A DNA stretch of 34,023 bases from an uncultured Oscillospiraceae bacterium (GTDB lineage: Bacteria > Bacillota > Clostridia > Oscillospirales > Oscillospiraceae): positions 1 through 34,023 of the forward strand of contig CALWXH010000108.1 in assembly GCA_944385465.1 (NCBI GenBank), written 5' to 3'. The translations under genes were made by a program, and so were the position numbers. Of the stretch, positions 7,464 through 31,658 are shown piece after piece. Within the stretch, counting starts at the first letter, position 1. Each line of letters starts with the position of its first letter. The notes beneath the pieces are model-generated. The model was not told the origin of the DNA. It saw only the letters and a program-made list of their open reading frames with translations, and searched no databases.

Positions 7464-7488
7464 TCTGAGCAAAACTGCATAGAACGTC

Positions 7489-7530: not shown

Positions 7531-7563
7531 GCCCCACGGGAAGAAATTTTACAATCCGACGCA

Positions 7564-7592
7564 TTGCATTTTGCCCGGGGAGAGACTATAAT
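7564..7592 (+). promoter_or_regulatory. Sigma-A promoter of SLH gene 3
   Basis: TTGCAT (7564-7569), 17-bp spacer, TATAAT (7587-7592). The -10 is perfect. Same -35 and spacing as the promoter at 4291-4319. Confidence 0.85.
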
Positions 7593-7614
7593 TTTTCTGT
7601 ATCAATAAACGGCG

Positions 7615-7656
7615 GCAATACGCGTATTGCTTTGGCTGTTCCAAAGCTGGAACAGC
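7615..7656 (+). promoter_or_regulatory. Paired inverted repeats in the leader of SLH gene 3
   Basis: A perfect 16-bp palindrome (GCAATACGCGTATTGC, 7615-7630) is followed four bases later by a hairpin with 9-bp arms (7635-7643 and 7648-7656, GCTGTTCCA type). They sit between the promoter and the ribosome binding site, the same place as the paired palindromes of SLH gene 2, but with different sequence. Confidence 0.65.
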
Positions 7657-7695
7657 ATCTGCACCTGTCTGCCGGAAAAATGAGGAGGAATCTCG

Positions 7696-16675: not shown

Positions 16676-16754
16676 AGGGTAAAAGAAAGGGTACAAGCCA
16701 AGCCTGCATTTTGCAAACACAATATTTTCCGCCAAAAAACGGCATCAAACATAA

Positions 16755-16791
16755 AAAATCCTCTGCATTTCAAACAAATACAGAGGATTTT
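16755..16791 (-). terminator. Bidirectional terminator between integrase and tRNA-Pro
   Basis: AAAATCCTCTG (16755-16765) and CAGAGGATTTT (16781-16791) pair over 11 bases. Because the stem starts with A and ends with T on both strands, it can stop the tRNA transcript (minus) and the integrase transcript (plus). Confidence 0.85.
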
Positions 16792-16792
16792 C

Positions 16793-16869
16793 TGGTCGGA
16801 GTGCCGGGATTCGAACCCGGGGCCTCTTGGACCCGAACCAAGCGCGATACCAAGCTTCGCCACACCCCG
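16793..16869 (-). tRNA. tRNA-Pro (anticodon CGG)
   Basis: A complete cloverleaf read on the minus strand. The acceptor CGGGGTG pairs with CACTCCG; the anticodon stem CTTGG/CCAAG holds loop TTCGGGT with anticodon CGG (plus 16833-16835); the T-arm is CCGGG TTCGAAT CCCGG. The terminal CCA is encoded (16793-16795). The 3' end faces the integrase, making the T-arm/acceptor end the likely attachment site. The gene is intact. Confidence 0.97.
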
Positions 16870-18165: not shown

Positions 18166-18957
18166 TCAGAGCGCCCCGGCCAGCTCCTTCAGGTCCTGAA
18201 AGACGGCGTGGGGCTGGACAGGGGACCCCTTCAGGTCCTCCCGGGTGGTCTCGCCGGAGAGGACCAGCAGGCCCAGCGCCCCGTTGTTGACCCCGGTGGC
18301 GATGTCGGTGTACAGCCGGTCGCCCACAAAGGCCACCTCCTCCCGGGCAAAGCCGGTGGCGGAGAGGATCATATCCACCGTCTCCGGACTGGGCTTGCCC
18401 AGGTATTGGGGCGTGCGGCCGGTGGAACTCTGGATGGCGGCGCAGAAGGCGCCGCAGTCCGGGATGAAGCCGTCGGCGGTGGGGCAGTTGAGGTCCATGT
18501 GGGTGGCCAGGAACCGCGCCCCCCGGCGCAGGAAGGTGCAGGCCCGCTCCAGCTTGTGGTAGGTGAGCTCCGTGTCAAAGGCGGCCACCACAATGTCCGG
18601 CTGCTCCTCCTGCGTCAGCGGGATGCCGGCCTGGAGGAAGCTCTCCCGGAGCGCCTGGGTGCCCATCAGGTAGACCCGCTTTCCGGGACAGTGGGTCTGG
18701 AGATAGCGGATGGTCACATCCCCGCTGGTCATGATCTGGGACCGGGCAATGGGGCAGCCCATGCCGGCCAGCTTGTCCATATAGCGCTCCGGGGTGCGGG
18801 AGGAGTTGTTGGTGAAGAACAGGAACTGCCGGCCGGTGCGCCGCACCGCCTCAATAAAATCCAGGGAGCCGGGGATGATCTGCTCCCCCAGGTAAAAGGT
18901 GCCGTCCATGTCCAGGACGAAGAGCCGGATCTCCTTCAGAAGTGCGCGGGTGTCCAT
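18166..18957 (-). CDS. HAD-IIA family phosphatase (NagD-like)
   Basis: A 263-residue cytoplasmic hydrolase, starting at ATG 18957 with AAGGAG eight bases upstream. All HAD motifs are present: D16-x-D18-G-T (nucleophile and acid), TNNSSR from T49, K188 (GKPSPE) and G212-D213-x-x-x-T-D218. The cap between motifs II and III has the C2A form of the NagD/AraL group. Members hydrolyse small phosphate esters such as nucleoside monophosphates, pyridoxal phosphate, glycerol phosphate and glycolate phosphate. The gene follows the FAD dehydrogenase by 48 bases on the same strand, so it is probably the last gene of the etf operon. That makes it a good candidate to remove the phosphate put on by the neighbouring PTS. 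The substrate is not readable. Confidence 0.92.
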   Translation of the reverse strand: MDTRALLKEIRLFVLDMDGTFYLGEQIIPGSLDFIEAVRRTGRQFLFFTNNSSRTPERYMDKLAGMGCPIARSQIMTSGDVTIRYLQTHCPGKRVYLMGTQALRESFLQAGIPLTQEEQPDIVVAAFDTELTYHKLERACTFLRRGARFLATHMDLNCPTADGFIPDCGAFCAAIQSSTGRTPQYLGKPSPETVDMILSATGFAREEVAFVGDRLYTDIATGVNNGALGLLVLSGETTREDLKGSPVQPHAVFQDLKELAGAL

Positions 18958-19005
18958 AGGCTGATCTCCTTTTCAAAGTAATGAGGGGAACGATGAGGGG
19001 CAGCG

Positions 19006-20475
19006 TCAAGGAAGAAGCGTATCTGGCCCCAGAAGGTGCCGGGGGTCGAAGAATGCTTTGATTTCCGCCATGGCGGACAGTTGCCCGGCAGGGGCTGACT
19101 GGGCGAGCTGAGCGCGGTGGAGTTTGCCAATCCCATTCTCGGACAAGGCCCGGCCGCCCAGCTCAGCAGAATACCTGGCCCAGCGTTCCAGCAAGGACTG
19201 CCCGGTTTGAAGCTGCTGGACAGTCTCAGGCAGCAGATTGACGTGGAGACGTCCAATGGAGGCGTGTCCGAAGATGGCGCCGGAAATTCCGGTGCGCTTG
19301 ATGTCATCCTGATAAGTCTGTACGGCGGGGATGAGTTCTGATACTGGGATCTGAAATGCCCCGCACAGTTTACTCAGTTCCGGCAGCTCCAGCCGGCAGA
19401 GGTCCAGCCGGGTGTTCACCGCTTCCGCAGCGGCATGGCGCAGCAGATGGAGCCGGGCGATTTCAGGCGGAGTGGAGGCGGCCCAGGTGTCAGATTCCAC
19501 GCCTCCGTGGGACGCAAAAGCGGAGAGGCAGGCCAACAGAGCGTCTTGGGGAGGAGCGGGATCGTCAGATTCCAGTTCCACCAGGACGGTGGCACCTGGA
19601 GCTTCCGGAAGGTCTGGCAGGGCACCTAGGGCTGAAGAAGAGGCGCGCAGCTCCCGGATCAAAGCCAGGGTGGCCTGATCCAGAAATTCCACCGTAGTGA
19701 TCCGGACTTCTTGCCAGTGCAGCCGGCACACTTCCTGAGAAAAACGCAGGGACTGCCGCCAGTCAGAGAAGAAAAACAGCAGACACCAGGTTTGGGCAGG
19801 CGCGGCGGTGAGTTGGAGACGGAGACAATCCAGGACAGCCAGCGTGCCCTCACTGCCGCAGAACAGATCCAGCAGATCCATACCTTGATATGGGGCAAAT
19901 CCCCAGCGAGGTTCGCCGCGTTTGGGCAGAGGGGCGGAAAGGGCCAGGTGCCGGCCGTCGGGAAGTGGACAGCCGGAATCATCAAACAGATATTGGCCTC
20001 GCTTTAGTGTCCAGCGCTGCCCATCGGGGAGAAGCGCGTCCATGGCCAGTACGTGGGAGGGCACGTCACCATAATACAGGCAATTGGGCCCGGAGGCGGC
20101 GCAGGCGACAGCGCCGGCAATGGTAGCGCCGCTCTCTGTAGGGTTTGGAGGAAAGACGAGACCAGCCTGCCGGGCGGCAGCTTGGATCTCGCTGAGCCGG
20201 GTACCGCACTGGACGGTGAGTACAGAGCCCTGGAGCTGACAGCCGGACATCTTTTCCACGCAGATCAGCCGCCCGCCGGAAGGAATACCGGCGGCGGCAA
20301 TACCAGTCCGCCCGCCCTGAACAGTGACAGGAATGCCTGCGCGGACGCAGTCTGCCAGAGCCTGTTGAAGCGCCTGTGTGTTTTCGGGGAAAAAGATGGT
20401 ATCACAGTGACCGGACAGGCGGGATTCATCCCGGAGATAGTCTACGCAGCGATCACCGATGCTTTGCCAATTCAT
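19006..20475 (-). CDS. FAD-linked dehydrogenase, GlcD/LctD (lactate/glycolate dehydrogenase) type
   Basis: A 489-residue flavoprotein of the vanillyl-alcohol-oxidase superfamily. Residues about 26-205 form the FAD-binding domain (FAD_binding_4), with the pyrophosphate loop QGGRTGIAAAGIP (53-65) and PPNPTESGATIAGAVACAASG (109-129). The rest is the FAD-oxidase C-terminal domain, closing with SENGIGKLHR and FFDPRHLLGP. Relatives oxidise 2-hydroxy acids (D-lactate, glycolate, 2-hydroxyglutarate). Its ATG overlaps the etfA stop by one base (TGATG at 20473-20477), so the two are translationally coupled. The order etfB-etfA-dehydrogenase matches the electron-confurcating lactate dehydrogenase lctBCD of Acetobacterium. 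No iron-sulfur motif is seen in the protein. Acceptor: the ETF encoded next to it. Substrate: a 2-hydroxy acid or a phosphorylated relative, by inference. Confidence 0.9.
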   Translation of the reverse strand: MNWQSIGDRCVDYLRDESRLSGHCDTIFFPENTQALQQALADCVRAGIPVTVQGGRTGIAAAGIPSGGRLICVEKMSGCQLQGSVLTVQCGTRLSEIQAAARQAGLVFPPNPTESGATIAGAVACAASGPNCLYYGDVPSHVLAMDALLPDGQRWTLKRGQYLFDDSGCPLPDGRHLALSAPLPKRGEPRWGFAPYQGMDLLDLFCGSEGTLAVLDCLRLQLTAAPAQTWCLLFFFSDWRQSLRFSQEVCRLHWQEVRITTVEFLDQATLALIRELRASSSALGALPDLPEAPGATVLVELESDDPAPPQDALLACLSAFASHGGVESDTWAASTPPEIARLHLLRHAAAEAVNTRLDLCRLELPELSKLCGAFQIPVSELIPAVQTYQDDIKRTGISGAIFGHASIGRLHVNLLPETVQQLQTGQSLLERWARYSAELGGRALSENGIGKLHRAQLAQSAPAGQLSAMAEIKAFFDPRHLLGPDTLLP

Positions 20476-21422
20476 CAGCTGTCCTCCTGCTCGGTAAGGG
20501 TCAGCAGCGCATCCAACAGGGCATTGCAGTCTGCCTGAAGGGCGTAATCACACTGAGAAAAAATGGGGGCGCCGCGATCTGTATTGACTGCGCAGATAGT
20601 TTGGCTGCCGGTCAGACCGGCCAGAAGCGCCGCGGAGCCGGAAGCCCCCAGAACCAGACAGAACCGGGGGGCGATGGTGGCAGCTGAGATGCCCACCAGA
20701 CTGGAGAGAGGGGCCAACCCTGAAAAGACCACCGGCCGGGTGGCGCCCACTTGGGCGCCCATACGTCCGGCCAAGCGGTGCAGCTTGTCCACAGCTGTTT
20801 GGGTTCCCATACCCCGGCCGGCGAGGAAAACTACATCCGCGCCAGCGAGAGCACTCAGGTGTTCCGCAGGGTGAAAGGCAGAGATGTGGATTTCCTGCTC
20901 TGGGAGGCGGAGGGATGGAAGGGGGGAAGGGTGCTGGAAACGGCTGGGCACCGCCGGGATTTGAGCGGGGGGAAACAGCGTGAGTACGGCGGGAAAACGG
21001 TCAATGGAAAATTGCGCGTTTTGCTCCAGCGAACACACGCCGCGGACCGCACACAGGCTCCCGCTCTCGGAAGCGTGCAGATCCACAAGGTCGCACAGGC
21101 AGCAGCCTTGAAGCAGAAAGGCCAGGGAGGCGGCCAGAATGTTGTGGTTGGTGCCGGCGGTAAGCAGAATCAGGTCATAGTTGCGCTGAGAGATCCATTG
21201 GGAAATGGCCGGACACAGTATTCCGGGATCAGCCAGACGAGACAGCGGCGGGGCGGGCAGGCGGAATGCGGCATTCACAGATTCGGGCAGGGAGATGGTG
21301 TCATCTCCGCCCAGAATCAACGCATCCGCCGGCCCGCTCAGCCCTGCGGCGCAGAGCCAGGCGGAGAGGGGGAACGCCTGGTCAGACGCCCCTGCGCCCG
21401 AGAGAAGAAGCAGAATGTTCAC
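20475..21422 (-). CDS. etfA: Electron transfer flavoprotein alpha subunit, divergent
   Basis: A 315-residue EtfA. The N-terminal half is the poorly conserved alpha/beta domain. The C-terminal half is the FAD domain: AGRGMG (about residue 200), GATRPVV with the conserved arginine, then APRFCLVLGASGSAALLAGL and AVNTDRGAPIFSQCDYAL. In ordinary EtfA the last motif reads like GISGAIQHLAG; here Gln-His is replaced by Ala-Leu, and the upstream VGQTG is VGISA. Both positions lie at the flavin, so the redox properties may be unusual. There is no ferredoxin domain. It sits between etfB (6-base gap) and the FAD dehydrogenase (1-base overlap). With EtfB it should carry electrons from the dehydrogenase, possibly with NAD-linked bifurcation as in LctBCD. 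Confidence 0.88.
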   Translation of the reverse strand: MNILLLLSGAGASDQAFPLSAWLCAAGLSGPADALILGGDDTISLPESVNAAFRLPAPPLSRLADPGILCPAISQWISQRNYDLILLTAGTNHNILAASLAFLLQGCCLCDLVDLHASESGSLCAVRGVCSLEQNAQFSIDRFPAVLTLFPPAQIPAVPSRFQHPSPLPSLRLPEQEIHISAFHPAEHLSALAGADVVFLAGRGMGTQTAVDKLHRLAGRMGAQVGATRPVVFSGLAPLSSLVGISAATIAPRFCLVLGASGSAALLAGLTGSQTICAVNTDRGAPIFSQCDYALQADCNALLDALLTLTEQEDS

Positions 21423-21428
21423 AGGCCC

Positions 21429-22205
21429 TCACCTTCCTTTCCCCACAGAGGACAAGAGCTTCAGCAGCGACCTGGCCTGCCTGGCGGGAGTTTTCCCTGG
21501 AAGCCAGGTCAGGGTGCGGTGGGAGAGACGGGGGAGGAACTGTTGGGGGGGTATATCCCGGCCTGACGGGACAGAGGAATGCAGCACGACGGGGGCGCGG
21601 CCCAGAGCGGACAGCTTTTCCCGCAGTGTGGCGATGCGCAGATAGGGGTGCTCCGTGTTGCTGAAGGCGCACACACAGGGACCTGGTACCGAGAGAAGGG
21701 CGGCCCCATCCGGAAGGGAGCGGGTGGCCTCAAAGCCGTCAGCGGTGAGGGCCAGATCGGACAGGGGGCCCAGATAGGGCAGGCGCAGGATTCGCGCCAG
21801 ATAGACTCCCATGGTCATATCACAGCTGGCGCTGTCCTGCTGTCCCGTGAGGATGACATTCCAGTTGTACCGGCTCAGAAATTGAGATAGCAGGCCGGCG
21901 GCTGCCTGGGGGGTGAAAGTGATGTCCTGGGGAGGTACCAGAAGAAAGATCTGGTGGATGCCGCAGGCGAAGAGATTTTGCAGGATGAGGTCGGGAATGT
22001 CATCAGAAATGGCGACGGCGGTGATGCGCGCCTCTTTTCCGAAGAGCTTGGCCTGGTCAGACAGGCGCAGAGCATACTCCAATGCCGCCTCGCTGTAGGA
22101 GTCCAGAGTCAAGGGGATCTGGAACGCCTGCTCCAACGGATGAAGTACCCGGGGGGTGAGAGAACCTTCCCTGACGAGAGAAACATACACGGCGATCTCA
22201 TACAT
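21429..22205 (-). CDS. etfB: Electron transfer flavoprotein beta subunit
   Basis: A 258-residue EtfB. ATG 22205 (MYEIAVYVSL) is chosen because it aligns with the usual EtfB start; a GTG four codons upstream is possible but lies too close to the GGAAAGG. Family features are DSYSEAALEYALRLSD (usual N-P-[FY]-D..A-[VL]-E-x-A-L), FACGIHQIFLL, and WNVILTGQQDSASCDMTMGVYLARILRLPYL, the nucleotide-binding stretch. The sequence is clearly divergent from housekeeping EtfB. It is the first gene of the leftward operon, about 33 bases from the promoter at 22245-22273. Confidence 0.87.
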   Translation of the reverse strand: MYEIAVYVSLVREGSLTPRVLHPLEQAFQIPLTLDSYSEAALEYALRLSDQAKLFGKEARITAVAISDDIPDLILQNLFACGIHQIFLLVPPQDITFTPQAAAGLLSQFLSRYNWNVILTGQQDSASCDMTMGVYLARILRLPYLGPLSDLALTADGFEATRSLPDGAALLSVPGPCVCAFSNTEHPYLRIATLREKLSALGRAPVVLHSSVPSGRDIPPQQFLPRLSHRTLTWLPGKTPARQARSLLKLLSSVGKGR

Positions 22206-22244
22206 CGAAATATGCACCTGCCTTTCCTACTGGCCTGTGCTGAT

Positions 22245-22273
22245 ATGATAACAATGCGTGGACGGAAAAGCAA
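22245..22273 (-). promoter_or_regulatory. Sigma-A promoter of the etfBA operon
   Basis: On the minus strand TTGCTT (22268-22273), 17-bp spacer, TATCAT (22245-22250). The start point would be near 22238. The large palindrome at 22289-22327 ends 15 bases upstream of the -35, where an activator would sit. Confidence 0.7.
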
Positions 22274-22288
22274 CCGCGCGAAAATTGT

Positions 22289-22327
22289 CGCTTTCTGTCA
22301 TTTGTACAAAACAAATGACAGAAAGCG
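22289..22327. promoter_or_regulatory. 39-bp palindrome between divergent operons
   Basis: Perfect 17-bp arms (CGCTTTCTGTCATTTGT at 22289-22305 and its complement at 22311-22327) enclose ACAAA. No T-run follows on either strand, so it is not an intrinsic terminator. A second, looser pair of the same inner motif, ACAAAT (22411-22416) and ATTTGT (22427-22432), lies 84 bases to the right. It could be an operator shared by both operons. The rest of 22206-22534 holds only the promoters. Confidence 0.75.
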
Positions 22328-22465
22328 GAAGATGATTGTGCGATCCGTGGAAAGAGGGCGAAATGGAATTGTGCTTGTTTCACAATAAAATGGCATGTTA
22401 ACGCCTGCGAACAAATAAAGTGAACAATTTGTGTTGCGGACAAACTACAAAGTTTGGACTGGCGG

Positions 22466-22493
22466 TTGACCAGGAGTGTTGTCATAATAAGAT
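22466..22493 (+). promoter_or_regulatory. Possible promoter of the PTS operon
   Basis: TTGACC (22466-22471), 16-bp spacer, TAAGAT (22488-22493). The -35 is good and the -10 is weak, which would suit an activated promoter. The start point would be about 22500, before the GGAGG at 22522. Confidence 0.45.
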
Positions 22494-22534
22494 TCAAGAT
22501 AAGCGGAAAAAAGGAATCATCGGAGGTGATAAAT

Positions 22535-22990
22535 TTGTTGTCGCAATTTTTGAACAGCCGGACCATTGCGGTCAGACAGCGGGCATGGGACAAGGCCCAG
22601 GCCATCCGCATTGCGGGGGAGCTGCTGGTAAAGCAGAAGCTGATCGATGAGAAGTATATTGATGAAATGGTGCAGGCTGTGGAAAAGCTGGGGCCGTACA
22701 TTGTTCTGTCGCCGGGGATCGCCTTTGCCCATGCCCGCCCCAGCCAGTTGGTGCAGCGGGATTGTGTCAGTCTGGTGACGCTGGATCCGCCGGTGGCCTT
22801 TGGACATCCGCGCAACGACCCGGTGTCCGTGCTCTTTGTACTGGCAGCCCGGCAGGCCAACCAGCATTTGTCGGTGATGCGGGACCTGGCCAAGCTGATT
22901 ATCCGGCCGGATTTTCTGCCCGCCATGGCCCAGGCGGGCAGTGAAGAAGAACTGCTGAAATACCTCAGAAGCGTGGATGCGCAGAGCTGA
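22535..22990 (+). CDS. PTS EIIA, ascorbate/mannitol class
   Basis: A 151-residue phosphocarrier that takes phosphate from HPr and gives it to EIIB. The start is probably TTG 22535 (eight bases after GGAGG at 22522-22526); TTG 22538 and GTG 22526 are in the same frame. The fold is that of PTS_EIIA_2. The phosphorylated histidine is H66 in PGIAFAHARP, and the AHARP wording is that of UlaC/SgaA-type proteins. It ends ADxAxAGSEEELLKYL-like, as usual for the family. First gene of an eight-gene operon. Use of a TTG start may keep its level low. Confidence 0.9.
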   Translation: MLSQFLNSRTIAVRQRAWDKAQAIRIAGELLVKQKLIDEKYIDEMVQAVEKLGPYIVLSPGIAFAHARPSQLVQRDCVSLVTLDPPVAFGHPRNDPVSVLFVLAARQANQHLSVMRDLAKLIIRPDFLPAMAQAGSEEELLKYLRSVDAQS

Positions 22991-23034
22991 CAGATGAGGT
23001 GAGGCGGAAATAGAGATCAAAGGGGGTGAAACAA

Positions 23035-23334
23035 GTGAGACGTTTGGAAGTGATTTGCGTGTGCGGGTTTGGACTGGGAACCAGCCTGATTCTGAAGATG
23101 CAGCTGGATGATGTGTTCAAGGAGGCCGGAATTGATGCGGAGGTGACCGCATTTGACATTACCGGTGCGGCCGGAATGGATGCGGATCTGTTTTTTACTT
23201 CTGCGGAATTCCATGACCAGCTTCAGGCGGGGACCAGCTCTCCGGTGATCGAGGTTCATGACTTCCTGGACAAACAGACGCTGCGGGATCTGGCTGTCCC
23301 GGCGGCAAAAAAAGTGATGGAGCAATGGCAATAG
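23035..23334 (+). CDS. PTS EIIB, ascorbate (UlaB/SgaB) type
   Basis: A 99-residue protein. GTG 23035 is chosen because AGGGGGTG lies six bases before it; the upstream in-frame GTG at 23026 falls inside that site. The active cysteine is C10 in the phosphate loop C-G-F-G-L-G-T-S. The N-terminal strand LEVICVC and the loop match the lactose/galactitol/ascorbate EIIB fold. It passes phosphate from EIIA H66 to the substrate bound in EIIC. It lies 44 bases after EIIA and 38 before EIIC. Confidence 0.92.
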   Translation: MRRLEVICVCGFGLGTSLILKMQLDDVFKEAGIDAEVTAFDITGAAGMDADLFFTSAEFHDQLQAGTSSPVIEVHDFLDKQTLRDLAVPAAKKVMEQWQ

Positions 23335-23372
23335 GAAAAGCATCATAATTCAATCAAGGGAGGGAACAATCT

Positions 23373-24665
23373 GTGGAAATTTTGCAATCGATCGTAAGCT
23401 ACATCTCTGGGCTGTTCCAGTCGTCGGCTGTATTTCTGGCGCTGATTGCGCTGGTGGGACTGCTGATTCAGAGAAAGTCGTTCAACGATGTGGTGAAGGG
23501 TACCTTCAAGACCATGCTGGGCTGCTTTGTACTGCTCATCGGCGTGGATGTGATGCAGGGTTCCATCGGCCTGCTGGCTTCCGCTTTCGGCTCCATGGTG
23601 CATACCACCGGCGGCGAGTTGGCAGACTATGGTGTGTTCTTGGGCAGCCACGGGGCTGAGATCGGCATGGTCATGGTGATCGGGTTCATCCTGAACTTGG
23701 TCATTGCCCGGTTTACACCGCTGAAGACCGTTTACCTCACCGGGCACATGATGATGTTCTTCGCCATGCTGTGGCTGGGTATGAGCACAGGCTTCGGTCT
23801 GACTGGAGTGCCCCGCATGGCCTTCGCCATTGTGGGTTATCTGCTGTCCATCACCATCACGCCCCAGCTGCTGCTCAAGGACATGAAGTTCCTCACCGGC
23901 AAGCAGGAGTTTACAGTGGGCCATTCGGGCACATTTTGGTGTTTGATTGCCGCCCGGGTGGGACAGCTGAGTAAGAAGCTGAGCAAAAAAGAGAGCCCCA
24001 GCATGGAGCATCTGAAGTTCCCTAAGCAGCTTGACTTCCTGCGGGACACCACGCTGACCACCGGTATCCTGATGGTGATCATCTATGCCATCGTGGCGCT
24101 GATGCTCCCCGCGGACGTCAGAGCGGAGCTCTATGGCGATGACGTATTTACCACTGTGCTGACCCAAGGCATGCGCTTTGGCGCAGGTATTTTGATCCTG
24201 CTCCAGGGCTGCCGCATGATGATGGGCGAGTTGGTGCCGGCTTTCACCGGAATTTCCAACAAGCTGGTGCCTGGCGCGGTGCCCGCGCTGGACATTCCGA
24301 TGATTTATCCCTATGGGCCCACCTCCCTGATGATTGGGTTCCTGGTGGCTCTGGTCAGCAGCCTGGTCACCATGTTCGTCATCAACTTCAGCGGCCTCAG
24401 CGCGTTTGTGTTGGTGCCCATCACCGCAGCGGTTTACTTTGACGTGGCCTCTGGTTCGGTCTTTGCCAACGCCTACGGCGGCCGGCGGGGCGTGATCCTG
24501 TGGGGGATCATTGGCGGCGTTGGGATTATGGTGGTCACTGCGCTGGCCATGCCGCTGGTGGCGAGTACTGTGGGTACCTTCGTTCAGCAGCAGGGCTTTA
24601 CGGAGTGCAGCGTCTGGATTATCATTGTCGGCTATATTGCACGCCTGTTCGGACTTGGCGGGTAG
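23373..24665 (+). CDS. PTS EIIC, ascorbate (UlaA/SgaT) type permease
   Basis: A 430-residue membrane permease starting at GTG 23373, eight bases after GGGAGGG. It has about ten hydrophobic segments and the family N-terminus (FLALIALVGLLIQRKSFNDVVKGTFKTMLG), a middle motif GHMMMFFAMLW, and a late motif with DIPMIYPYGPTSLMIGF. Its class (EIIC of the Ula/SgaT family, PF03611) carries L-ascorbate in E. coli, but the same fold serves other acidic or polyol-like substrates. No UlaD/E/F/G-like enzyme is nearby, so ascorbate is not the obvious substrate. A hairpin of 14-bp arms (24674-24687, 24695-24708) follows before the regulator gene. Confidence 0.93.
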   Translation: MEILQSIVSYISGLFQSSAVFLALIALVGLLIQRKSFNDVVKGTFKTMLGCFVLLIGVDVMQGSIGLLASAFGSMVHTTGGELADYGVFLGSHGAEIGMVMVIGFILNLVIARFTPLKTVYLTGHMMMFFAMLWLGMSTGFGLTGVPRMAFAIVGYLLSITITPQLLLKDMKFLTGKQEFTVGHSGTFWCLIAARVGQLSKKLSKKESPSMEHLKFPKQLDFLRDTTLTTGILMVIIYAIVALMLPADVRAELYGDDVFTTVLTQGMRFGAGILILLQGCRMMMGELVPAFTGISNKLVPGAVPALDIPMIYPYGPTSLMIGFLVALVSSLVTMFVINFSGLSAFVLVPITAAVYFDVASGSVFANAYGGRRGVILWGIIGGVGIMVVTALAMPLVASTVGTFVQQQGFTECSVWIIIVGYIARLFGLGG

Positions 24666-24673
24666 TGCGCGGC

Positions 24674-24708
24674 GTGCCGCACGGCGGGCGGATACCGCCG
24701 TGCGGCAC
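24674..24708 (+). repeat. GC hairpin between EIIC and the PRD regulator
   Basis: GTGCCGCACGGCGG (24674-24687) and CCGCCGTGCGGCAC (24695-24708), loop of seven bases. No T-run follows, so it is more likely an RNA-stability element that lowers expression of the downstream genes than a terminator. Confidence 0.75.
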
Positions 24709-24752
24709 CTCGGCTTCTGGACGAATCGGCGTATCATGGATCGGAGGGTACA

Positions 24753-26840
24753 ATGGAACTGAATTTAATTATGGTTACAACCCTGGAGACCCTCCTGGAT
24801 GCGGGCGGACGGGTGAATATCGCAGACCTGACAGAACGCCTTCGCATCTCCAGGCGTACCTTGAGCTACAACCTGTCCAAGTTGAACTATACGCTGGCCA
24901 AGGATGGGTACGCCCAGATTGTTCAGATGGACAAGCAGCTGTTGCTGGATCAGAACGGGTTGGATCAGCTGCGGGGCTGGCTCAGCAAGCAGCCGCTGAC
25001 CGATTACGTGCTCTCCGCCCAGGAGCGCAGGCTGTTGCTGTTGCTGAGCGCGGGGTTGATGGGAGAGCACACCTCGGTGGACTGGCTTTGCAAATGGATG
25101 AATGTCAGCCGGAATACCGTGTTGGGAGATCTCTCGGAACTGAAACAGAATTTGGGGGAGTATGGGCTGACCTTCTCCAGACAGGGGAGAAGGGGGTATC
25201 AAATCACGGGCGATGAGCTGACCTTGCGTTACTGCCTCTATGAGCACGCCTGTCAGGCGGAGACGGAGTTCATCAGCGCCTTGGTTGACCAAGTTTTTTT
25301 AGAGGCGGTCCGGCTGCATGGCAGCCCGGCCAGTGACCGGGTATCTCTATTTGTCTGGCTGGAGAGCATGATTCAGAAGTCAGAACAGTGCATTGAGGGA
25401 AAGTTCAATAACAATTCCATTACAGAAATCAGCTACTATATCATGATGATTATCTGCCGGGCGGGCAGAGGAATGCTCAGCTTGGACAGTGAAGAGATCA
25501 GGCCTACCCGGGAGTATCAGATGGCGCAGTCCATTGCCGGAATGCTGAAGAAGTGGAACATAGAACTGCCGGAAGAGGAGCGGCTGTACCTGGCCACAGT
25601 GTTGCTGGGAGCCAAGTTGTACAGCTACCATGAAGTGGCGCGGCAGGACAAAGTGGATCTGCGCGCCTTCGCCAACGAGCTGATCGACACGTTTGAGACG
25701 AAAGCATGTGTGCGCTTTAGTAACCGGGAGCAGCTGATCGATCAATTCATCGTCCACCTGCGGCCGCTGTACTACCGGTTGAGGTACCGGGTGAAAGTGC
25801 GCAACAGAATATATGGCGCCATCCGACGGGAATACCAGGGGATCTATGACCTGACTCGTCTGACGGTAAGCACCTTTGAAGACCGGTACGGCCTGAACAT
25901 CCCGGACGAGGAATTGGCCTATATCTCCGTGTACCTGCTTACGTGGTTGAAACGGCAGAATCTGAGCTGGGGGAATGGGGAGAGAACCGTACTCATCCTG
26001 TGTGGGGCCGGAGTGGGTACCTCACTGCTGCTGCGGCAGCAGATTTCAGAGATTCTTGGAATCGGGTACCAGTATGAAATCCATGATGTGAGAGAGCTGC
26101 CCGATTTGAAGCTGGCGATGTATGACCTGGTGGTGACCACAGTGGATCTGCCCACAGATTGTGATCACCTGATCAAAACAGATCCCATCCTGAGTGCGGC
26201 CCAGAAAGAGCAGCTGATGAAATGGAGCTTTTCCAAGCCGGGGAAAAACTCTGTGCAGAGGAAAGTGGAACAGGTGCTCACCGCGGTGGAAGCTCATGGC
26301 GGGGTGCCGGATCGGATGGGGCTGATGATAGACCTATACCGGGCCTTCGAACGTGACAACGATGCGGAACAGGGCCCTGGCCTGTGGGATGTGCTGACGC
26401 CGGATATGGTTCGGGTGAGTATGCGGCGATTTCAAGCGGCGGACGGTCTGCGGTTTGCCTGTGAGCGGCTGGAGGAAAAGGGGCTGGTGGAGCCAGGCTA
26501 TGCCCAGTCGGTTCAGGAGATCATCGAGCAGATGGGACTGTACGCGGAAATCTCTCCAGGTGTGCTTTTGGCTCACGCCAGACCCAGTGCAGGGGTAAAT
26601 GGAGTCGGCCTTGCCCTGACGGTGTTTCGTCAGCCTGTCAATTTTGAAACATGGGGGAAGAGCATCACGGCTATTTTTGCCCTTTGCACCCCGGACAACC
26701 AGTCCCATCTGCGGCTGATGCGGGATTTGATGAAGCTGCTGGACAGTGAGCGCATCCGCAGCATTTTGGTGGACTGCCCCTATCAGAATGCGGAGCGCTT
26801 GTACCGTTTTCTGCGCAAGGCGTTTGAAGGCAAACCATAA
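24753..26840 (+). CDS. PRD-containing transcriptional regulator (BglG/MtlR family)
   Basis: A 695-residue regulator starting at ATG 24753 (GGAGGG upstream). Order: two N-terminal HTH segments (about 8-50, VNIADLTERLRISRRTLSYNL; and about 90-135, TSVDWLCKWMNVSRNTVLGDL), PRD1 (about 190-290), PRD2 (about 300-400), an EIIB-like domain with C417 (LCGAGVGTS), and a C-terminal EIIA domain with H608 (LLAHARP). PTS components phosphorylate such proteins and so report substrate supply. PRD2 keeps H335 (VHLRPLYYRL), but the usual second histidine (AYIALHF type) is Tyr (AYISVYL), and PRD1 shows no clear histidine pair. Control may thus depend on the EIIB and EIIA domains. The EIIA domain resembles the operon's own EIIA. 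It likely activates the divergent promoters at 22245-22493. Confidence 0.93.
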   Translation: MELNLIMVTTLETLLDAGGRVNIADLTERLRISRRTLSYNLSKLNYTLAKDGYAQIVQMDKQLLLDQNGLDQLRGWLSKQPLTDYVLSAQERRLLLLLSAGLMGEHTSVDWLCKWMNVSRNTVLGDLSELKQNLGEYGLTFSRQGRRGYQITGDELTLRYCLYEHACQAETEFISALVDQVFLEAVRLHGSPASDRVSLFVWLESMIQKSEQCIEGKFNNNSITEISYYIMMIICRAGRGMLSLDSEEIRPTREYQMAQSIAGMLKKWNIELPEEERLYLATVLLGAKLYSYHEVARQDKVDLRAFANELIDTFETKACVRFSNREQLIDQFIVHLRPLYYRLRYRVKVRNRIYGAIRREYQGIYDLTRLTVSTFEDRYGLNIPDEELAYISVYLLTWLKRQNLSWGNGERTVLILCGAGVGTSLLLRQQISEILGIGYQYEIHDVRELPDLKLAMYDLVVTTVDLPTDCDHLIKTDPILSAAQKEQLMKWSFSKPGKNSVQRKVEQVLTAVEAHGGVPDRMGLMIDLYRAFERDNDAEQGPGLWDVLTPDMVRVSMRRFQAADGLRFACERLEEKGLVEPGYAQSVQEIIEQMGLYAEISPGVLLAHARPSAGVNGVGLALTVFRQPVNFETWGKSITAIFALCTPDNQSHLRLMRDLMKLLDSERIRSILVDCPYQNAERLYRFLRKAFEGKP

Positions 26841-26855
26841 TTGAGGAGGTACAAC

Positions 26856-28229
26856 ATGGAAAAATCAGTGGTATCCATTGTGAAGGCGCCTAATACCCCA
26901 GACGCAAAAGAAATGGATCAGATGATCCGCAAGGCCATCGATCTGATCGGCGGGATGAAAAAATTTGTCTCGCCTGGGGATACTGTGGTGATTAAGGGCA
27001 ATTTCTTTGCCCCATATCCCCCTCCTGTGATTGTGGACCGTCGGACGGTGGCGGCCCTGGTTCGGCAGCTGTACGAGGCGGGAGCAGGGCAGGTCACCCT
27101 GTGTGAAGCGGTGAGCGTGGGGACAAAACTGGGGCGGGGACAGAGCACAGCCTATGTGCTGGATGAGATGGGAGTCCGGGATGAGGCGGAAAAGGCCGGG
27201 GCCCGGGTGGTTTGCCTGGAAGACGAGGAACGCATCCAGGTGTCCATTCCAGACGGGAAATGCATCGGCCAGGTGGCCTATCCCAAGCTGATGTATGACT
27301 GCGATGTGCTCATTGACCTGCCCTGTATGAAGACGCACGGTATGACCCTGGTCACCCTGGGGATGAAGAACTTCCAGGGCATCCTCAACGACGAGGAAAA
27401 ATATTACGCCCATCGGGATGATTTCGAGCAGAAAATCGTGGATCTCTTCAAAATCCGGAAGCCGGATCTGACCCTGATTGACGGCATTACCGCCATGGAG
27501 GGCAACGGCGCGGGGGAGGGCGGCCTGCCTCACCCCATGAACCTGTATATTGCCAGCGCCGATGTGGTGGCAGCCGACAGCGTGGCCATTGCCTGTATGG
27601 GCATTGAGGATGTTTTCTCTGTGGCGTTTAACCGGATTGCCGACTATGACGCGGTGGGCAACGGGAAGCTGGAGAACATCGATGTGGTGGGCAGCCAAAT
27701 CGATGAGGTGAAAGAGGAGTTCCTGCTGCCAGATGCTTATCGTTATCCCGATGACCGCATGGTGACAGGTACTTATCAGAATATTGATTTCCGGATCGGC
27801 GGGGCCTGTAAGCAGTGCTGGAATATGGCCGGAGGCATGGGGCGTATGCTCTCCAAGATTCCCCAGGAGCGGTTTACGGTGCTGGTGGGCAGCGATCCCA
27901 AGCTTCCCAATGGGATCACAACCCCGCTGGAAAATGTCATTGTGCTGGGAGACTGTGCCTGCGCCGCCACCGGGTGCATCAAGGAGTTGCGCAACAAGAT
28001 GCTCCTGGAGGAAAAGGGCGTCATGGCTCCCGGCTGCCCGCCCTATCGCCCGGCTACCGCGATTGTAGAGAGATATCTCGCCCAGCGCGGTTTGCTGAAC
28101 AAAGAGGCCGGGAAAGCGGGGGCACAGAAGAAGACGCAGCAGTTTTTTGATTACTACAAGAAGATCGACCCCACCTGGAAGCCGAAGAGCGAACAGAAAA
28201 AAACTGAGACTGAGGAGGATGCGACATGA
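26856..28229 (+). CDS. DUF362 protein with a C-terminal cysteine set
   Basis: A 457-residue protein starting at ATG 26856, seven bases after GAGGAGG (an in-frame TTG at 26841 is too early). It is 15 bases after the regulator. The DUF362 core is recognised by DTVVIKGNF, the KTHGMTLVTLGMKNFQG segment (159-175) and ADVVAADSVAIACMG (235-249). The C-terminal 150 residues add C318 and C321 (CKQC), C367, C369, C374 and C394, enough ligands for an iron-sulfur cluster. The last 40 residues are Lys/Glu-rich. DUF362 proteins have no agreed function; some are fused to ferredoxin domains. Its place next to flavoproteins suggests an electron-transfer or redox-maturation role. This is inference. Confidence 0.85.
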   Translation: MEKSVVSIVKAPNTPDAKEMDQMIRKAIDLIGGMKKFVSPGDTVVIKGNFFAPYPPPVIVDRRTVAALVRQLYEAGAGQVTLCEAVSVGTKLGRGQSTAYVLDEMGVRDEAEKAGARVVCLEDEERIQVSIPDGKCIGQVAYPKLMYDCDVLIDLPCMKTHGMTLVTLGMKNFQGILNDEEKYYAHRDDFEQKIVDLFKIRKPDLTLIDGITAMEGNGAGEGGLPHPMNLYIASADVVAADSVAIACMGIEDVFSVAFNRIADYDAVGNGKLENIDVVGSQIDEVKEEFLLPDAYRYPDDRMVTGTYQNIDFRIGGACKQCWNMAGGMGRMLSKIPQERFTVLVGSDPKLPNGITTPLENVIVLGDCACAATGCIKELRNKMLLEEKGVMAPGCPPYRPATAIVERYLAQRGLLNKEAGKAGAQKKTQQFFDYYKKIDPTWKPKSEQKKTETEEDAT

Positions 28230-29656
28230 GTGCGTGTATTCAGGATCTGAAGGCCATGTTGGGCGAGGAGCGCGTGGTGACGGATGAGGCGGTGCTGCGT
28301 CTGTACGACGGCTTCAACCGCAGCTATGAGAAATCCTTCGGCGTGTGTATGACAGTACCTCCGGTGGCCATTGTGTTTGTGGAGAGCACGCAGGAGATAT
28401 CCCAGGTGCTGCGTTACTGCAACGAGCACAGAATCAACGTGATTCCCCGGGCGGGCGCCTCCTCCGCGGAGGGGCTGCTGGAGACCTGGGTGGAAGGTTC
28501 CGTGGTGGTGGACTGCACCCGTATGAACAAGCTGCTGGAACTGGACACCTACAATATGATGGCCACAGTGCAGTGCGGCTATCCCCTGGAGGAGCTGGAA
28601 CGGCAGGCCAATCAGCACAAGCTGACCACCGGGCACAGTCCCCAGTCCCGCCCGCTGGCCATGATGGGGGGACTGGTAGCCACCCGGAGCATTGGACAAT
28701 TTTCTACGTATTATGGCGGCATTGAAGATATGGTGTGCGGCCTGGAGGCTGTAATGGCCGACGGGCGGATCGTGCGCATCCGCAATGTGCCCCGCCGCTC
28801 TGCCGGCCCGGATCTGCGGCACCTGTTTTTGGGCAGCGAAGGCGGCATCGGGCTTATCACAGAGGTCACTGTGAAGCTATTCCCATACTACCCGGAGCAC
28901 ATGTGGATGGGCGGCTATATCGTGGACAACATCGACATTGGTTTTGCGGCCATCCGGGACGTCATGGTGGAGGGATATAAGCCAGCTGTGATCCGCCTGT
29001 ACGACAAATCTGACATGGACCACAACTTCGGCAGCGTCAAACTGAAAGAGCAGGAAGCGTTTATGTTTTTCACCGCCGAAGGGCCCCAGGAGATTTCCCA
29101 GGGGACCGGTGCGGGGATTGACCGCGTCGCCAGACGGCATGGAGCCCGGTACATCGGAACCCAGGCGGTGGAGCACTGGATGGAACACCGCAACGATCTG
29201 TGTAAAACGGTAGGAGCGGAAGAGACAGACCGGAGACATCGGGAGACCCAGGTCTTTTATGCCACACTGGAGATCAGCGCCAGCTGGAGTGACATTGTGA
29301 AGATTTACCGGGATGTGATGGCCAATGTGCCGGGCAAGATTGAGAACCTGGTGATGCTGGGCGGCCATGTGTCCCACAGCTATATCAACGGGACAAACAT
29401 CTACTTCGTCTATCAGCTGAAGATGAATGCGCCTGAGACCTCCGAACAGGAGCAGATGGCCTTGATCCGCGCCATCTGCGACGAGGTGATCAAGTACCCC
29501 ACCGGCGGCGTGGTACACCATCACGGTATGGGCAAGCAGCGTGTGTGCTACGCTCGGCAGGAGCATGGCAGCTCTTACTGCCTGATGGAGGAGTTGAAGC
29601 GTACCTTCGATCCCAACCAGATCCTGAACCGGGGTGTGCTTCTGTCCAAAGAATAA
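28226..29656 (+). CDS. FAD-binding oxidoreductase, alkyl-DHAP-synthase/GlcD superfamily
   Basis: A 476-residue flavoprotein of the vanillyl-alcohol-oxidase superfamily. ATG 28226 overlaps the DUF362 stop (ATGA), so they are coupled. The FAD domain includes PRAGASSAEGLLETWVEGSV, with the phosphate-binding loop at about 73-85, and GHSPQSRPLAMMGGLVATRSIGQ. It then has RRSAGPDLRHLFLGSEGGIGLITEVTVK. Near the C-terminus H431-H432-H433-G-M-G-K is present, the motif of alkyldihydroxyacetonephosphate synthase, followed by FDPNQILNRGVLL. In that enzyme the histidines handle a phosphorylated three-carbon substrate. Ordinary ether-lipid synthesis would not explain a place in a PTS operon, so I propose a role on a phosphorylated, PTS-derived compound. 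A simple dehydrogenase of an unphosphorylated acid is the alternative. Confidence 0.87.
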   Translation: MSACIQDLKAMLGEERVVTDEAVLRLYDGFNRSYEKSFGVCMTVPPVAIVFVESTQEISQVLRYCNEHRINVIPRAGASSAEGLLETWVEGSVVVDCTRMNKLLELDTYNMMATVQCGYPLEELERQANQHKLTTGHSPQSRPLAMMGGLVATRSIGQFSTYYGGIEDMVCGLEAVMADGRIVRIRNVPRRSAGPDLRHLFLGSEGGIGLITEVTVKLFPYYPEHMWMGGYIVDNIDIGFAAIRDVMVEGYKPAVIRLYDKSDMDHNFGSVKLKEQEAFMFFTAEGPQEISQGTGAGIDRVARRHGARYIGTQAVEHWMEHRNDLCKTVGAEETDRRHRETQVFYATLEISASWSDIVKIYRDVMANVPGKIENLVMLGGHVSHSYINGTNIYFVYQLKMNAPETSEQEQMALIRAICDEVIKYPTGGVVHHHGMGKQRVCYARQEHGSSYCLMEELKRTFDPNQILNRGVLLSKE

Positions 29657-29668
29657 GGGGGCGTTCTC

Positions 29669-31369
29669 ATGCGGTTGCAGGGAAAGGCGGTCTCACCTGG
29701 ATACGCGGTGGGCGAGGCCTATTGCTATGAGAGAGCGGTCTTAAAAGCGCCTCAGACATATCTTGAAAGCGGAGAAGCGGAGGCGGCCTGGAAGATTTTT
29801 CTGAGCGGAAGACAGGCCGCGATTCAGGAGCTGGAGCGGCTCAAGGAACAGCCCGGCACAGCGGAGAGCGCCAAGCGCGTGATGGCGGCGCACACAGATA
29901 TCTTAAAGGACCGGGCTTTGGAAAAAGCCATCCGCAAGCGCATAGAGCAGGAACGCAGGAATGCGCTCTGGGCGGTGGAGCTGGTCTATGACCACTACAA
30001 GCAGATCATGGAAAACGCAAAGGATCCGCTGTTTCGGGAACGGGCGGCAGACTTTGAGGATACCAAAGGCAGGCTGCTGCGTTGCTGCCAGGGAATTCCG
30101 GAGCAGGATCTAAGCGCTTTGGGCAAACCGGTGATCCTGGTCTGCGGCGACCTGATGCCCTCTGACACGGCCAACCTGGATCGGGAACATGTGCTGGCCA
30201 TCGTCACGCAAGTGGGGGGCGAGACCTCTCACAGCGCCATTCTGGCCCGCAATTACGGGATTCCCGCCGTGCTGGGGGTGCCTGATGTGATGCGGCAGGT
30301 GTGTTCCGGAGACACCGTTGCGGTGGACGGGGCAGACGGTAGCGTGTTTGTCCGGCCGGATGAACAGATCTGCCAGAACTATCGTCAGAAGCGGGAGCGC
30401 TATCTGGAACAGGTCAAACAGGACGCGGTATGGAAGCACGTGCCGTGCAGAACTGCGGACGGTGCTGAGGTGGAGATCTGCCTGAATATCGCTTCCGATG
30501 ATGCCCTAGACGGGGAGAACCTGGAGGGAATCCACGGAGTGGGATTGCTGCGCACGGAGTTTCTCTATATGCACAGCGATCATCTGCCCACGGAGGAGGA
30601 GCAGATGCGTGCCTATCAGCACGTACTGCAAGCGGCAAAGGGAAAGCCGGTGATTCTGCGCACGCTGGATATCGGCGGAGATAAAACTCTGGACTATTTT
30701 GAACTGCCCCGGGAAAACAACCCTTTCCTGGGGGAGCGCGCCATCCGGCTGTGCCTGCACCATCCGGAGATCTTCCAGACGCAGCTGCGGGCGGCCCTGC
30801 GGGCTTCGGTGAGTGGAGAGCTCTGGCTGATGTTCCCCATGATTGGCAGCATGGAAGATATCCGCACGGTGAAAAAGCAGTTGGAGCAGGCCAGGCACAC
30901 CCTGGAGGAGCGGGGCCAATCCTATGGCGCAAATGTGAAAGTAGGGATCATGATCGAGATTCCATCCATCGCCATCCTGGCAGATCAGGCGGCACAGGAA
31001 GTGGATTTTGCCAGCATTGGATCCAATGATCTGGTACAGTATCTGGAGGCGGCAGACCGGATGAATCCGGCGGTGGCCCGCTACTATGAGAGCTGGAGCC
31101 CGGCGGTCTACCGGCTGATCGGACTGGTGTCCCGGGAGTTTGAAAAGGCGGGGAAAGTTCTGTCGGTGTGCGGTGAGATGGCGGGAGATCCGGAGCAGGC
31201 GCTGATTCTGGCGGGGTTGGGCCTGCGTAAGCTGTCCATGAATCCGGGCATGGTGTCCCAGGTGAAAAAGACGCTGGCGCAGTACCCGTTGTCCCGCCTG
31301 CGGGAACTGGCCCAGGCCGCCTGTCAATGCGGAAGCGCGGAAGAAGTTCATCAATTGTTCCAAGCATAA
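29669..31369 (+). CDS. ptsI: PTS Enzyme I (phosphoenolpyruvate-protein phosphotransferase)
   Basis: A 566-residue EI that starts the phosphorelay by taking phosphate from phosphoenolpyruvate. ATG 29669 follows AAGGGGG by eight bases and lies 12 bases after the flavoprotein. The N-terminal part has H188 in GGETSHSAILARNYGIPA (the phosphorylated histidine). The PEP-binding barrel shows R332 (ILRTLDIGGDK), FLGERAIRLCL, R-A-A-L-R-A-S, MFPMIGSMEDI, GIMIEIPSIAILAD, SIGSNDLVQYLEAADR and catalytic C501 (SVCGEMAGD). The length fits the family (570-575). Finding EI with HPr inside a substrate-specific operon is unusual. Either this is the only general EI of the cell, or a dedicated second copy. Confidence 0.96.
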   Translation: MRLQGKAVSPGYAVGEAYCYERAVLKAPQTYLESGEAEAAWKIFLSGRQAAIQELERLKEQPGTAESAKRVMAAHTDILKDRALEKAIRKRIEQERRNALWAVELVYDHYKQIMENAKDPLFRERAADFEDTKGRLLRCCQGIPEQDLSALGKPVILVCGDLMPSDTANLDREHVLAIVTQVGGETSHSAILARNYGIPAVLGVPDVMRQVCSGDTVAVDGADGSVFVRPDEQICQNYRQKRERYLEQVKQDAVWKHVPCRTADGAEVEICLNIASDDALDGENLEGIHGVGLLRTEFLYMHSDHLPTEEEQMRAYQHVLQAAKGKPVILRTLDIGGDKTLDYFELPRENNPFLGERAIRLCLHHPEIFQTQLRAALRASVSGELWLMFPMIGSMEDIRTVKKQLEQARHTLEERGQSYGANVKVGIMIEIPSIAILADQAAQEVDFASIGSNDLVQYLEAADRMNPAVARYYESWSPAVYRLIGLVSREFEKAGKVLSVCGEMAGDPEQALILAGLGLRKLSMNPGMVSQVKKTLAQYPLSRLRELAQAACQCGSAEEVHQLFQA

Positions 31370-31391
31370 AGGGAAAGGAGCACAGACATCC

Positions 31392-31658
31392 ATGTGCAGC
31401 AAGACGGTGACGATTGTGAATCCATCAGGCCTTCATGCCAGACCGGCCTCGGATTTTGTGGCGAAGGCAGAGAGGTTTGACAGCGAGATCCAGCTGGCTC
31501 GTCCGGGGGAAGATCCTGTGGATGCCAAGTCCATTGTGATGCTGCTCACCTTGGGCCTGTGCCAAGGCGAGCAGGCGATCCTCTCGGCGGAAGGCTCGGA
31601 TGAGGAAAGAGCGGTGGAAGAGCTGTCAGCCATGATTGCCGACGGGTTCGGGGAGTGA
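31392..31658 (+). CDS. ptsH: PTS phosphocarrier protein HPr
   Basis: An 88-residue HPr starting at ATG 31392 after GGAAAGGAG. H15 (GLHARPAS) is the PEP-dependent phosphorylation site. S47 in DAKSIVMLLTLGL corresponds to Ser46, the HPr-kinase site, shifted by one residue because of the loop RPGEDPVDAK. Both sites are intact, so it can carry phosphate and could also take part in catabolite control. It follows EI by 22 bases, ends the operon and is followed by a terminator. Cys2 and the acidic C-terminus are not typical of housekeeping HPr. Confidence 0.95.
   Translation: MCSKTVTIVNPSGLHARPASDFVAKAERFDSEIQLARPGEDPVDAKSIVMLLTLGLCQGEQAILSAEGSDEERAVEELSAMIADGFGE

Follow-up and report, generated by a model that had tools for sequence, protein, structure and literature searches.

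A phosphotransferase-linked relative of the YgcU flavoprotein module in an uncultured Oscillospiraceae bacterium: a candidate route for glyceryl-type compounds

The ygc cluster of Escherichia coli and a related locus with its own phosphorelay

The ygc cluster of Escherichia coli comprises ygcE (FGGY kinase), yqcE (MFS transporter), ygcW (short-chain dehydrogenase/reductase, SDR), the flavoprotein gene ygcU, ygcS (MFS transporter), ygcR and ygcQ (EtfB and EtfA of an electron transfer flavoprotein, ETF), ygcP (an antiterminator responsive to glycerol-3-phosphate, G3P), ygcO and ygcN. Of 5426 complete E. coli genomes, 4442 contain a DNA match to ygcU; in the three matches listed, 41% of the query is covered, with an identity of about 64%. 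In the literature naming ygcU and other ygc genes, no title or beginning of an abstract announces a function. Passages of single papers report that deletion of ygcU in enterohaemorrhagic E. coli did not reverse the D-serine effect (PMC13012123), show ygcU in a table (PMC8228696), or list ygcW<>yqcE within a section on CRP targets obtained by genomic systematic evolution of ligands by exponential enrichment (Genomic SELEX; PMC3105977). Here, we describe a locus of an uncultured Oscillospiraceae bacterium (assembly GCA_944385465.1, contig CALWXH010000108.1; the whole stretch of 34,023 nucleotides analysed is called the window) in which a homologous flavoprotein and EtfBA are encoded together with a phosphotransferase system (PTS). 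An earlier note on this DNA knew of no described pathway of such a composition, a statement that has to be qualified, since the locus is a variant of the ygc cluster.

We propose, with a probability of roughly 45%, that the two divergent operons of this locus are regulated together as a single catabolic unit, a version of the YgcU module fed by a PTS, which probably acts on a glyceryl-type compound; they are considered one unit because of their gene packing and of a palindrome between them. A permease (EIIC) of the GAT class would import a small molecule that ends in a glyceryl-like group (R-O-CH2-CHOH-CH2OH, or something closely analogous), and the PTS would phosphorylate its terminal hydroxyl group, a task that in relatives would fall to a transporter and a glycerol-kinase-like FGGY kinase. 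Oxidation at C2 would lead to an R-substituted dihydroxyacetone phosphate (DHAP), and the flavoprotein, which resembles alkyl-dihydroxyacetonephosphate synthase (AGPS), might then cleave the C1-O bond by way of a flavin-N5 adduct to yield R-OH and DHAP; an alternative oxidative outcome would be an aldehyde, with electrons passing to EtfBA. A GlcD-like enzyme could oxidise a D-2-hydroxy acid using the same ETF as acceptor, a DUF362 protein might interconvert isomers of that acid in a LarA-like manner, and a HAD phosphatase would take off the phosphate.

The flavoprotein and its recurrent gene neighbourhood

E. coli YgcU and the window flavoprotein are members of one widespread family, the genes of which usually have those for EtfBA and an FGGY kinase as neighbours. 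With seven relatives (named or same-family) the window protein shares 42-47% identity, a value that reaches 69% in genome contigs, and a tblastn search of a plasmid collection, which includes chromosome-sized E. coli records, matched E. coli (45.7%) as well as Enterococcus, Streptomyces, Ilyobacter, Vibrio and Priestia. Judged by submitters' titles, clusters of the family occur in Enterobacteriaceae, Clostridia, Bacilli, Actinomycetota, Myxococcota and others. In profile comparisons AGPS was the best match (215 bits), and when an AlphaFold model (predicted local distance difference test score, pLDDT, of 91; 34 sequences) was submitted to Foldseek, AGPS occupied ranks 1-30. Two AGPS residues that are mutated in 4bca and 4bc7, Tyr578 and Arg419, correspond in the alignment to Tyr393 and Arg257 of the window protein, and the HHH motif of AGPS corresponds to His431-433. 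After matches of ≤300 bits or ≤400 amino acids had been dropped, Arg257, Tyr393 and His431-433 were invariant in 82 of 82 sequences. The active site is therefore of the AGPS type, without the His-His-Glu metal site of GlcD-type dehydrogenases, which makes a C-O bond reaction at a DHAP unit at least as likely as a simple oxidation. For AGPS, a passage of PMC3509576 proposes that C1 of DHAP forms an adduct with N5 of the flavin; by analogy, the reverse of such a reaction on R-O-DHAP would release R-OH, and a hydrolysed flavin adduct could alternatively leave reduced flavin for EtfBA.

In the GlcD-like enzyme of the same locus, His404, His411 and Glu446 align with the His/His/Glu positions of D-lactate and D-2-hydroxyglutarate dehydrogenases, which we take to bind the metal in D-2-hydroxy-acid dehydrogenases, and these residues are kept in 22, 20 and 22 of 23 GlcD-like sequences (window included). 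Its closest matches in the PDB are a D-lactate dehydrogenase and LctD. The window EtfA is close to canonical ETFs, with LctC as best PDB match, and a Pfam scan found PF00766 and no second domain. The HAD-IIA protein matched 1vjr best (252 bits), and glycerol-3-phosphate phosphatases as well.

For the study of gene neighbourhoods, the best 80 of 556 flavoprotein relatives from a scan of genome contigs were kept, corresponding to 79 loci. In a quick tree the window clade (18 rows; support of 99 in the Shimodaira-Hasegawa-like approximate likelihood ratio test, SH-aLRT) was separate from the rest, and it contains 16 loci besides the window (L016-L031), with 63 loci (L032-L094) forming the sister set. 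Open reading frames (ORFs) of the clade were clustered after edges ≤60 bits and length ratios ≥2 had been dropped, each family name being tested on one member; for counts of reference hits, matches below fixed bit thresholds were dropped. As many contigs were short but kept, absences in these counts are soft. By clustering, an FGGY kinase is present in 15/16 clade loci, EtfA and/or EtfB in 11/16, a GlpA/G3P-oxidase-like gene in 7/16, a GlcD-like gene in 6/16, a MIF-like small protein in 6/16 (PF01187, 20.5 bits, where the cut-off is 22) and a histidine phosphatase in 3/16. Direct reference matches gave the FGGY kinase in 14/16 and EtfB together with EtfA in 7/16. When one FGGY kinase per locus was compared with subfamily models, 12 of 13 scored best against GlpK models (351-520 bits), and all 13 stayed below the TIGR01311 cut-off of 590. 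The sister clade showed an FGGY kinase in 59/63 loci, an SDR in 51/63, EtfB plus EtfA in 47/63, a G3P antiterminator in 39/63 and a GlcD-like gene in 16/63.

Gene orders differ among genomes, being FAD-EtfB-EtfA-SDR-FGGY in Enterococcus, SDR-FAD-FGGY-MFS-EtfB-EtfA in Ilyobacter and SDR-FAD-FGGY in Vibrio, Priestia and Streptomyces (FAD standing for the flavoprotein). One locus from the host's own family (L007) combines MFS, flavoprotein, EtfB, EtfA, GlcD-like enzyme, G3P antiterminator, SDR and FGGY kinase in one stretch. Eight control loci analysed with the same references gave no match to Etf, FGGY, GlcD, DUF362, HAD-IIA or the flavoprotein, and matched the expected Ula EIIC and EIIA, one SDR of 64 bits and ABC ATPases; this control is small, as a single homologous region accounts for six of the loci. 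The flavoprotein module is accessory: the protein was matched in 3 of 150 genomes of the family at 1e-40 and in 4 of 394 genomes of the order at 1e-90 (own genome included).

The earlier note had suggested uptake and phosphorylation by the PTS, flavin-linked oxidation into an ETF and subsequent dephosphorylation. Parts of this outline stand, as other phyla also encode the flavoprotein, EtfBA and the GlcD-like enzyme together, and the FGGY kinase in 15 of the 16 clade loci speaks for phosphorylation as a recurrent step. A phosphatase recurs in the clade as well, as the histidine phosphatase already mentioned (3/16 loci) or as HAD-IIA (1/16). For the AGPS-like enzyme the reading changes in that a plain oxidation is at most as likely as a C-O bond reaction, given its AGPS-type site and lack of a GlcD-type metal site. 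Nonetheless, the flavoprotein could be a plain dehydrogenase. A phosphorylated polyol or sugar acid delivered by the PTS would then be oxidised by the flavoprotein and the GlcD-like enzyme with EtfBA as acceptor and be dephosphorylated by the HAD protein, and no ether would be cleaved. The ETF genes near the flavoprotein in both clades favour such a scheme, as do FixC/FixX-like genes, which accompany the module in 21/63 sister loci, mostly enterobacterial, two additional invariant His residues close to the active site, and the D-lactate dehydrogenases that follow AGPS in the fold comparison from rank 31. However, the Tyr/Arg/His-loop site is not that of the GlcD-like partner and the best fold matches are AGPS, so that we consider a plain dehydrogenase somewhat unlikely.

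In the window, no FGGY kinase, SDR or GlpA-like oxidase is among the identified genes, and a PTS is present instead. The PTS occupies the place held elsewhere by transporter and kinase, which it may replace functionally.

Several observations weigh against the proposed pathway. PTS genes were found in 0/79 other flavoprotein loci, the linkage being seen in the host genome only, and this host genome is a draft of 108 contigs. A joint occurrence of EIIC, DUF362 protein, flavoprotein and EtfBA, suggested earlier as a check, was found for the pair of EtfBA and flavoprotein but not for the PTS, and DUF362 together with HAD-IIA recurred in a single locus, L017. The gene immediately behind that for the flavoprotein encodes EtfB in just 1/16 clade and 23/63 sister loci. 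The FGGY kinase of L017 is XylB-like, and two of the GlpK-like ones, those of L022 and L025, score high enough to clear the threshold set for a GlpK subfamily and could be glycerol kinases of the ordinary type. As neither an SDR nor a GlpA-like gene is present in the window, the C2 oxidation is left without a clear enzyme. Among 394 genomes of the order and 391 of the class, only the host's own gave a close match to the DUF362 protein (1e-60). At the active site, the position of AGPS Arg515, presumably the mammalian equivalent of Dictyostelium R447, is loosely aligned with E332 and is Arg in none of the 82 sequences, and the invariant His381 and His384 have no counterpart in AGPS. In a figure of PMC3509576, R352, Y508 and R447 of Dictyostelium AGPS are named, and R447 is reported there to be important. 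With the Arg515 equivalent absent and two His residues added, the chemistry of the flavoprotein may differ from that of AGPS.

L017, from a Lachnospiraceae genome, is the only other locus with both a DUF362 protein (66% identity) and a HAD-IIA homologue (223 bits); it also contains the FGGY kinase and a gene that looks MFS-like by eye. In the sister clade, 21 of 63 loci encode a transporter near the module, either of the BCCT type (16) or OpuC-like ABC (5) (L033, L035, L037, L038, L040, L043, L044, L045, L047, L048, L055, L065, L066, L067, L075, L076, L079, L081, L085, L088 and L092). These neighbours suggest a quaternary-ammonium glyceryl substrate in those loci, for which the head group of a betaine lipid would be a guess; among titles on betaine-lipid catabolism and glyceryl-ether cleavage, nothing was on point. 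In one of these loci (L045:9116-13150) the AGPS-like flavoprotein gene is present in two copies with end branches of zero length in the quick tree. On plasmids of Vibrio pelagius (L011) and Priestia megaterium (L012), the SDR-FAD-FGGY set has genes for an aldehyde dehydrogenase and for a member of a lyase family close by.

Phosphorelay, operon layout and surroundings of the module

All gene identities and positions given in the earlier note were confirmed as open reading frames with significant family matches (ORF calling, Pfam, NCBIfam; Table 1). Its divergent operons were likewise recovered, as two tightly packed rows on either side of a perfect inverted repeat. Gaps between genes are 6, -1 and 48 nt in the leftward operon (EtfB-EtfA-GlcD-like-HAD) and 35, 38, 87, 15, -4, 12 and 22 nt in the rightward operon (EIIA-EIIB-EIIC-PRD-DUF362-flavoprotein-EI-HPr). 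The inverted repeat is the sole perfect one reported within 22150-22600, and a 15-base piece of it has no further occurrence in the window even if up to 3 mismatches are tolerated. From its position, this palindrome might mediate a shared regulation of both operons. A promoter scan was at chance level (4 found vs 4.2 expected), and terminator-like sites were slightly above chance (16 found vs 10.8 expected, standard deviation 3.4). In 2-kb steps, the GC content of the window is 0.50-0.65, with 0.63 for the leftward and 0.54-0.60 for the rightward operon.

Table 1. Features of the two divergent operons and of the region between them.
Feature	Position	Strand	Basis or remark
HAD-IIA phosphatase (NagD/YutF/p-nitrophenylphosphatase group)	18166-18957	-	PF13344/PF13242
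GlcD/LctD-like FAD dehydrogenase	19006-20475	-	PF01565+PF02913
EtfA (ETF alpha, FAD-binding domain)	20475-21422	-	PF00766
EtfB (ETF beta)	21429-22217	-	PF01012; ATG start possibly 22205
Perfect inverted repeat, 17-nt arms, 5-nt centre	22289-22327		candidate shared operator
PTS EIIA, UlaC-like	22535-22990	+	PF00359; TTG start after GGAGG most likely
PTS EIIB, CGFGLGTS motif	23026-23334	+	PF02302
PTS EIIC, GAT (ascorbate/galactitol) class	23373-24665	+	PF03611, 290 bits
PRD/Mga-type regulator, EIIB-like Cys motif, C-terminal EIIA domain	24753-26840	+	PF00874, PF05043, PF00359
DUF362 protein, LarA clan	26856-28229 (start most likely ATG 26856)	+	PF04015, 156 bits
AGPS-like/YgcU-family flavoprotein	28226-29656	+	Pfam, profile, AlphaFold/Foldseek
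PTS enzyme I (EI)	29669-31369	+	PF02896, PF05524, PF00391
HPr	31392-31658	+	PF00381

The phospho-acceptor motifs of EI, HPr, EIIA and EIIB, recognised by what we assume to be their consensus, are all present, and the PRD regulator carries an EIIA domain of its own (Pfam) besides a Cys motif resembling that of EIIB. The relay had been called self-contained, and it is complete at the locus; the host genome, however, holds two EI and three HPr in total, window copies included, which means that the proteins of the locus are not its only general PTS proteins. The EIIC of the GAT class was found as a single copy. An L-ascorbate PTS with its catabolic enzymes encoded elsewhere could explain such components, as EIIA and EIIC share identity with UlaC (36% over 116 residues; BLAST) and UlaA (27%), and the ascorbate EIIC is the best NCBIfam model for the window EIIC, albeit below its cut-off (355 vs 380 bits). 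Protein queries with UlaG and UlaD from E. coli gave no match in the host genome, in searches that had no positive control and whose empty result therefore shows little, and the neighbours are flavoenzymes. We consider an ascorbate system highly improbable.

Left of the module, at 15494-16869, a tyrosine recombinase gene adjoins a gene for tRNA-Pro (CGG), and this is a likely insertion site of a mobile element. The PTS and the flavoprotein/Etf genes might accordingly be unrelated neighbours joined by a mobile insertion: recombinase and tRNA gene lie about 1.3-2.7 kb left of the operons, the combination was seen in the host genome only, and the module is missing from six congener stretches (15-19 kb) that surround homologues of the right-hand ABC genes. 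The neighbours in these stretches are unlike those in the window, and with neighbours so different no empty insertion site could be cleanly read in any of the six. Yet, the DUF362 and flavoprotein genes are embedded in the PTS gene row ahead of EI and HPr (gaps of 15, -4 and 12 nt) and the perfect palindrome lies between the divergent operons, which renders a chance joining improbable. Further to the left (297-11784), three long, repeat-rich, secreted-looking proteins are encoded in a row, the C-terminal parts of which presumably resemble S-layer homology repeats.

The DUF362 protein and comparison with described systems

Pfam clan CL0471 holds both DUF362 and DUF2088/LarA, as stated in a passage of PMC11770544. 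In LarA, R75, K184 and H200 contact the nickel-pincer nucleotide and D72, H108, H174 and K298 are catalytic, according to a section of PMC7583248. About 15% of the genomes analysed in PMC11796402 contain larB, larE and larC without larA, and in a passage of that paper cofactor users unlike LarA are expected. The host genome fits this pattern, with a larE-larB-larC gene row (contig C26 of the host assembly, G000; L106:6693-9605; LarC 432 bits) and no match to Lar_N (PF09861), for which controls were positive in 2 of 14 genomes.

When a profile of six DUF362 sequences was compared with one of eight LarA sequences (hhalign, default settings), a score of 48.1 was obtained (probability 78%, E 1.8e-5, 138 columns), as against ≤19.3 for reversed and unrelated profiles and ≤41.0 for 200 column shuffles; other settings gave 357 columns at a score of 29.1 and a probability of 55%. 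In the 357-column alignment, His161, Lys171 and His186 of the window protein align with His174, Lys184 and His200 of LarA and are invariant in 6/6 DUF362 sequences, as are their counterparts in 8/8 LarA sequences. Read by eye, the positions of LarA Asp72, Arg75 and His108 are not conserved in the DUF362 alignment, and the protein shows PF04015 only, without Lar_N. An AlphaFold model from two sequences was poor (pLDDT 44). From these comparisons the DUF362 protein is probably a LarA-clan enzyme, but that it acts as a nickel-pincer enzyme within a glyceryl-ether pathway appears quite unlikely.

A tentative but serious possibility is that it serves EtfBA as an iron-sulfur electron-transfer or scaffold protein unrelated to nickel-pincer chemistry. 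Its C-terminal part is rich in Cys, two DUF362 relatives have Cys-rich ferredoxin-like tails (read by eye), and comparison with a single LarA sequence gave no match. Also, DUF362 appears in just one of the larC neighbourhoods inspected, that on a plasmid of Streptomyces sp. NBC_01450 (L133:10278-18377), where about 4 kb separate it and a gene of the PF04199 cyclase family from larE-larB-larC. No match to LarA was obtained in that 30-kb stretch, nor is this organism among the 15 records with LarA. By annotation or search, five other larC neighbourhoods were without DUF362, and four of them (two of Embleya, one each of Pseudosulfitobacter and Paenibacillus) contain a LarA-like gene; in Lacticaseibacillus, larBCDE lie between insertion sequence (IS) elements with no larA in the stretch. 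Against an iron-sulfur role stand the profile score above all shuffles, the paired His and Lys residues, and the larE-larB-larC row in a host genome without a Lar_N match.

In the 88 flavoprotein loci no LarA was detected, and DUF362 was found in L017 only, apart from a 24-bit match in L034. Only 4 records of the plasmid collection matched the window DUF362 protein (1e-4) and no relatives were found in viral contigs; in Acetoanaerobium, DUF362 and larC are distant from each other on one record. In Tepidibacter, LarA itself adjoins EtfB, a parallel to the window, where DUF362 occurs with EtfBA and the GlcD-like enzyme. Passages naming DUF362, including those of PMC11770544 and PMC5742341, do not suggest a role of nickel. 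The DUF362 protein is a concrete candidate for the cofactor user that the question raised in a passage of PMC11796402 calls for. If it did act as a nickel-pincer enzyme in the proposed pathway, genomes with orphan larE, larB and larC and the orphan ygcU family would be joined in one PTS-fed glyceryl-ether pathway.

Each described system shares some part with the window. The EII components belong to the same families as those of the L-ascorbate PTS UlaABC, whereas regulator and neighbouring genes differ. Like AGPS, the window flavoprotein has the fold, the flavin domain, the His loop and both catalytic residues, Tyr and Arg; unlike AGPS, it is without a counterpart of Arg515, carries two additional invariant His residues and is encoded in the context of a kinase or PTS and an ETF. 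As in the lactate dehydrogenase LctBCD (NAD+, ferredoxin), a GlcD-like enzyme with the metal-site residues stands beside EtfBA; in contrast to LctBCD, to which identity is only remote, EtfA shows PF00766 alone and no lactate permease is among the identified genes of the window. With the LarA superfamily, the DUF362 protein shares the Pfam clan and the His174/Lys184/His200 positions, but it is a PF04015 (not PF09861) protein in which the Asp72/Arg75/His108 positions are not conserved. The E. coli ygc cluster likewise encodes a homologous flavoprotein (45.7% identity) with EtfB and EtfA; of these two loci, the one of E. coli has MFS transporters, an FGGY kinase, an SDR, a G3P-responsive antiterminator and ferredoxin-family and FixC-like genes, whereas that of the window has PTS, PRD regulator, DUF362 protein, GlcD-like enzyme and HAD phosphatase. 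The PTS version suggests which step is performed by kinase and transporter in YgcU-family clusters, and would thereby narrow the substrate class of E. coli ygcU.

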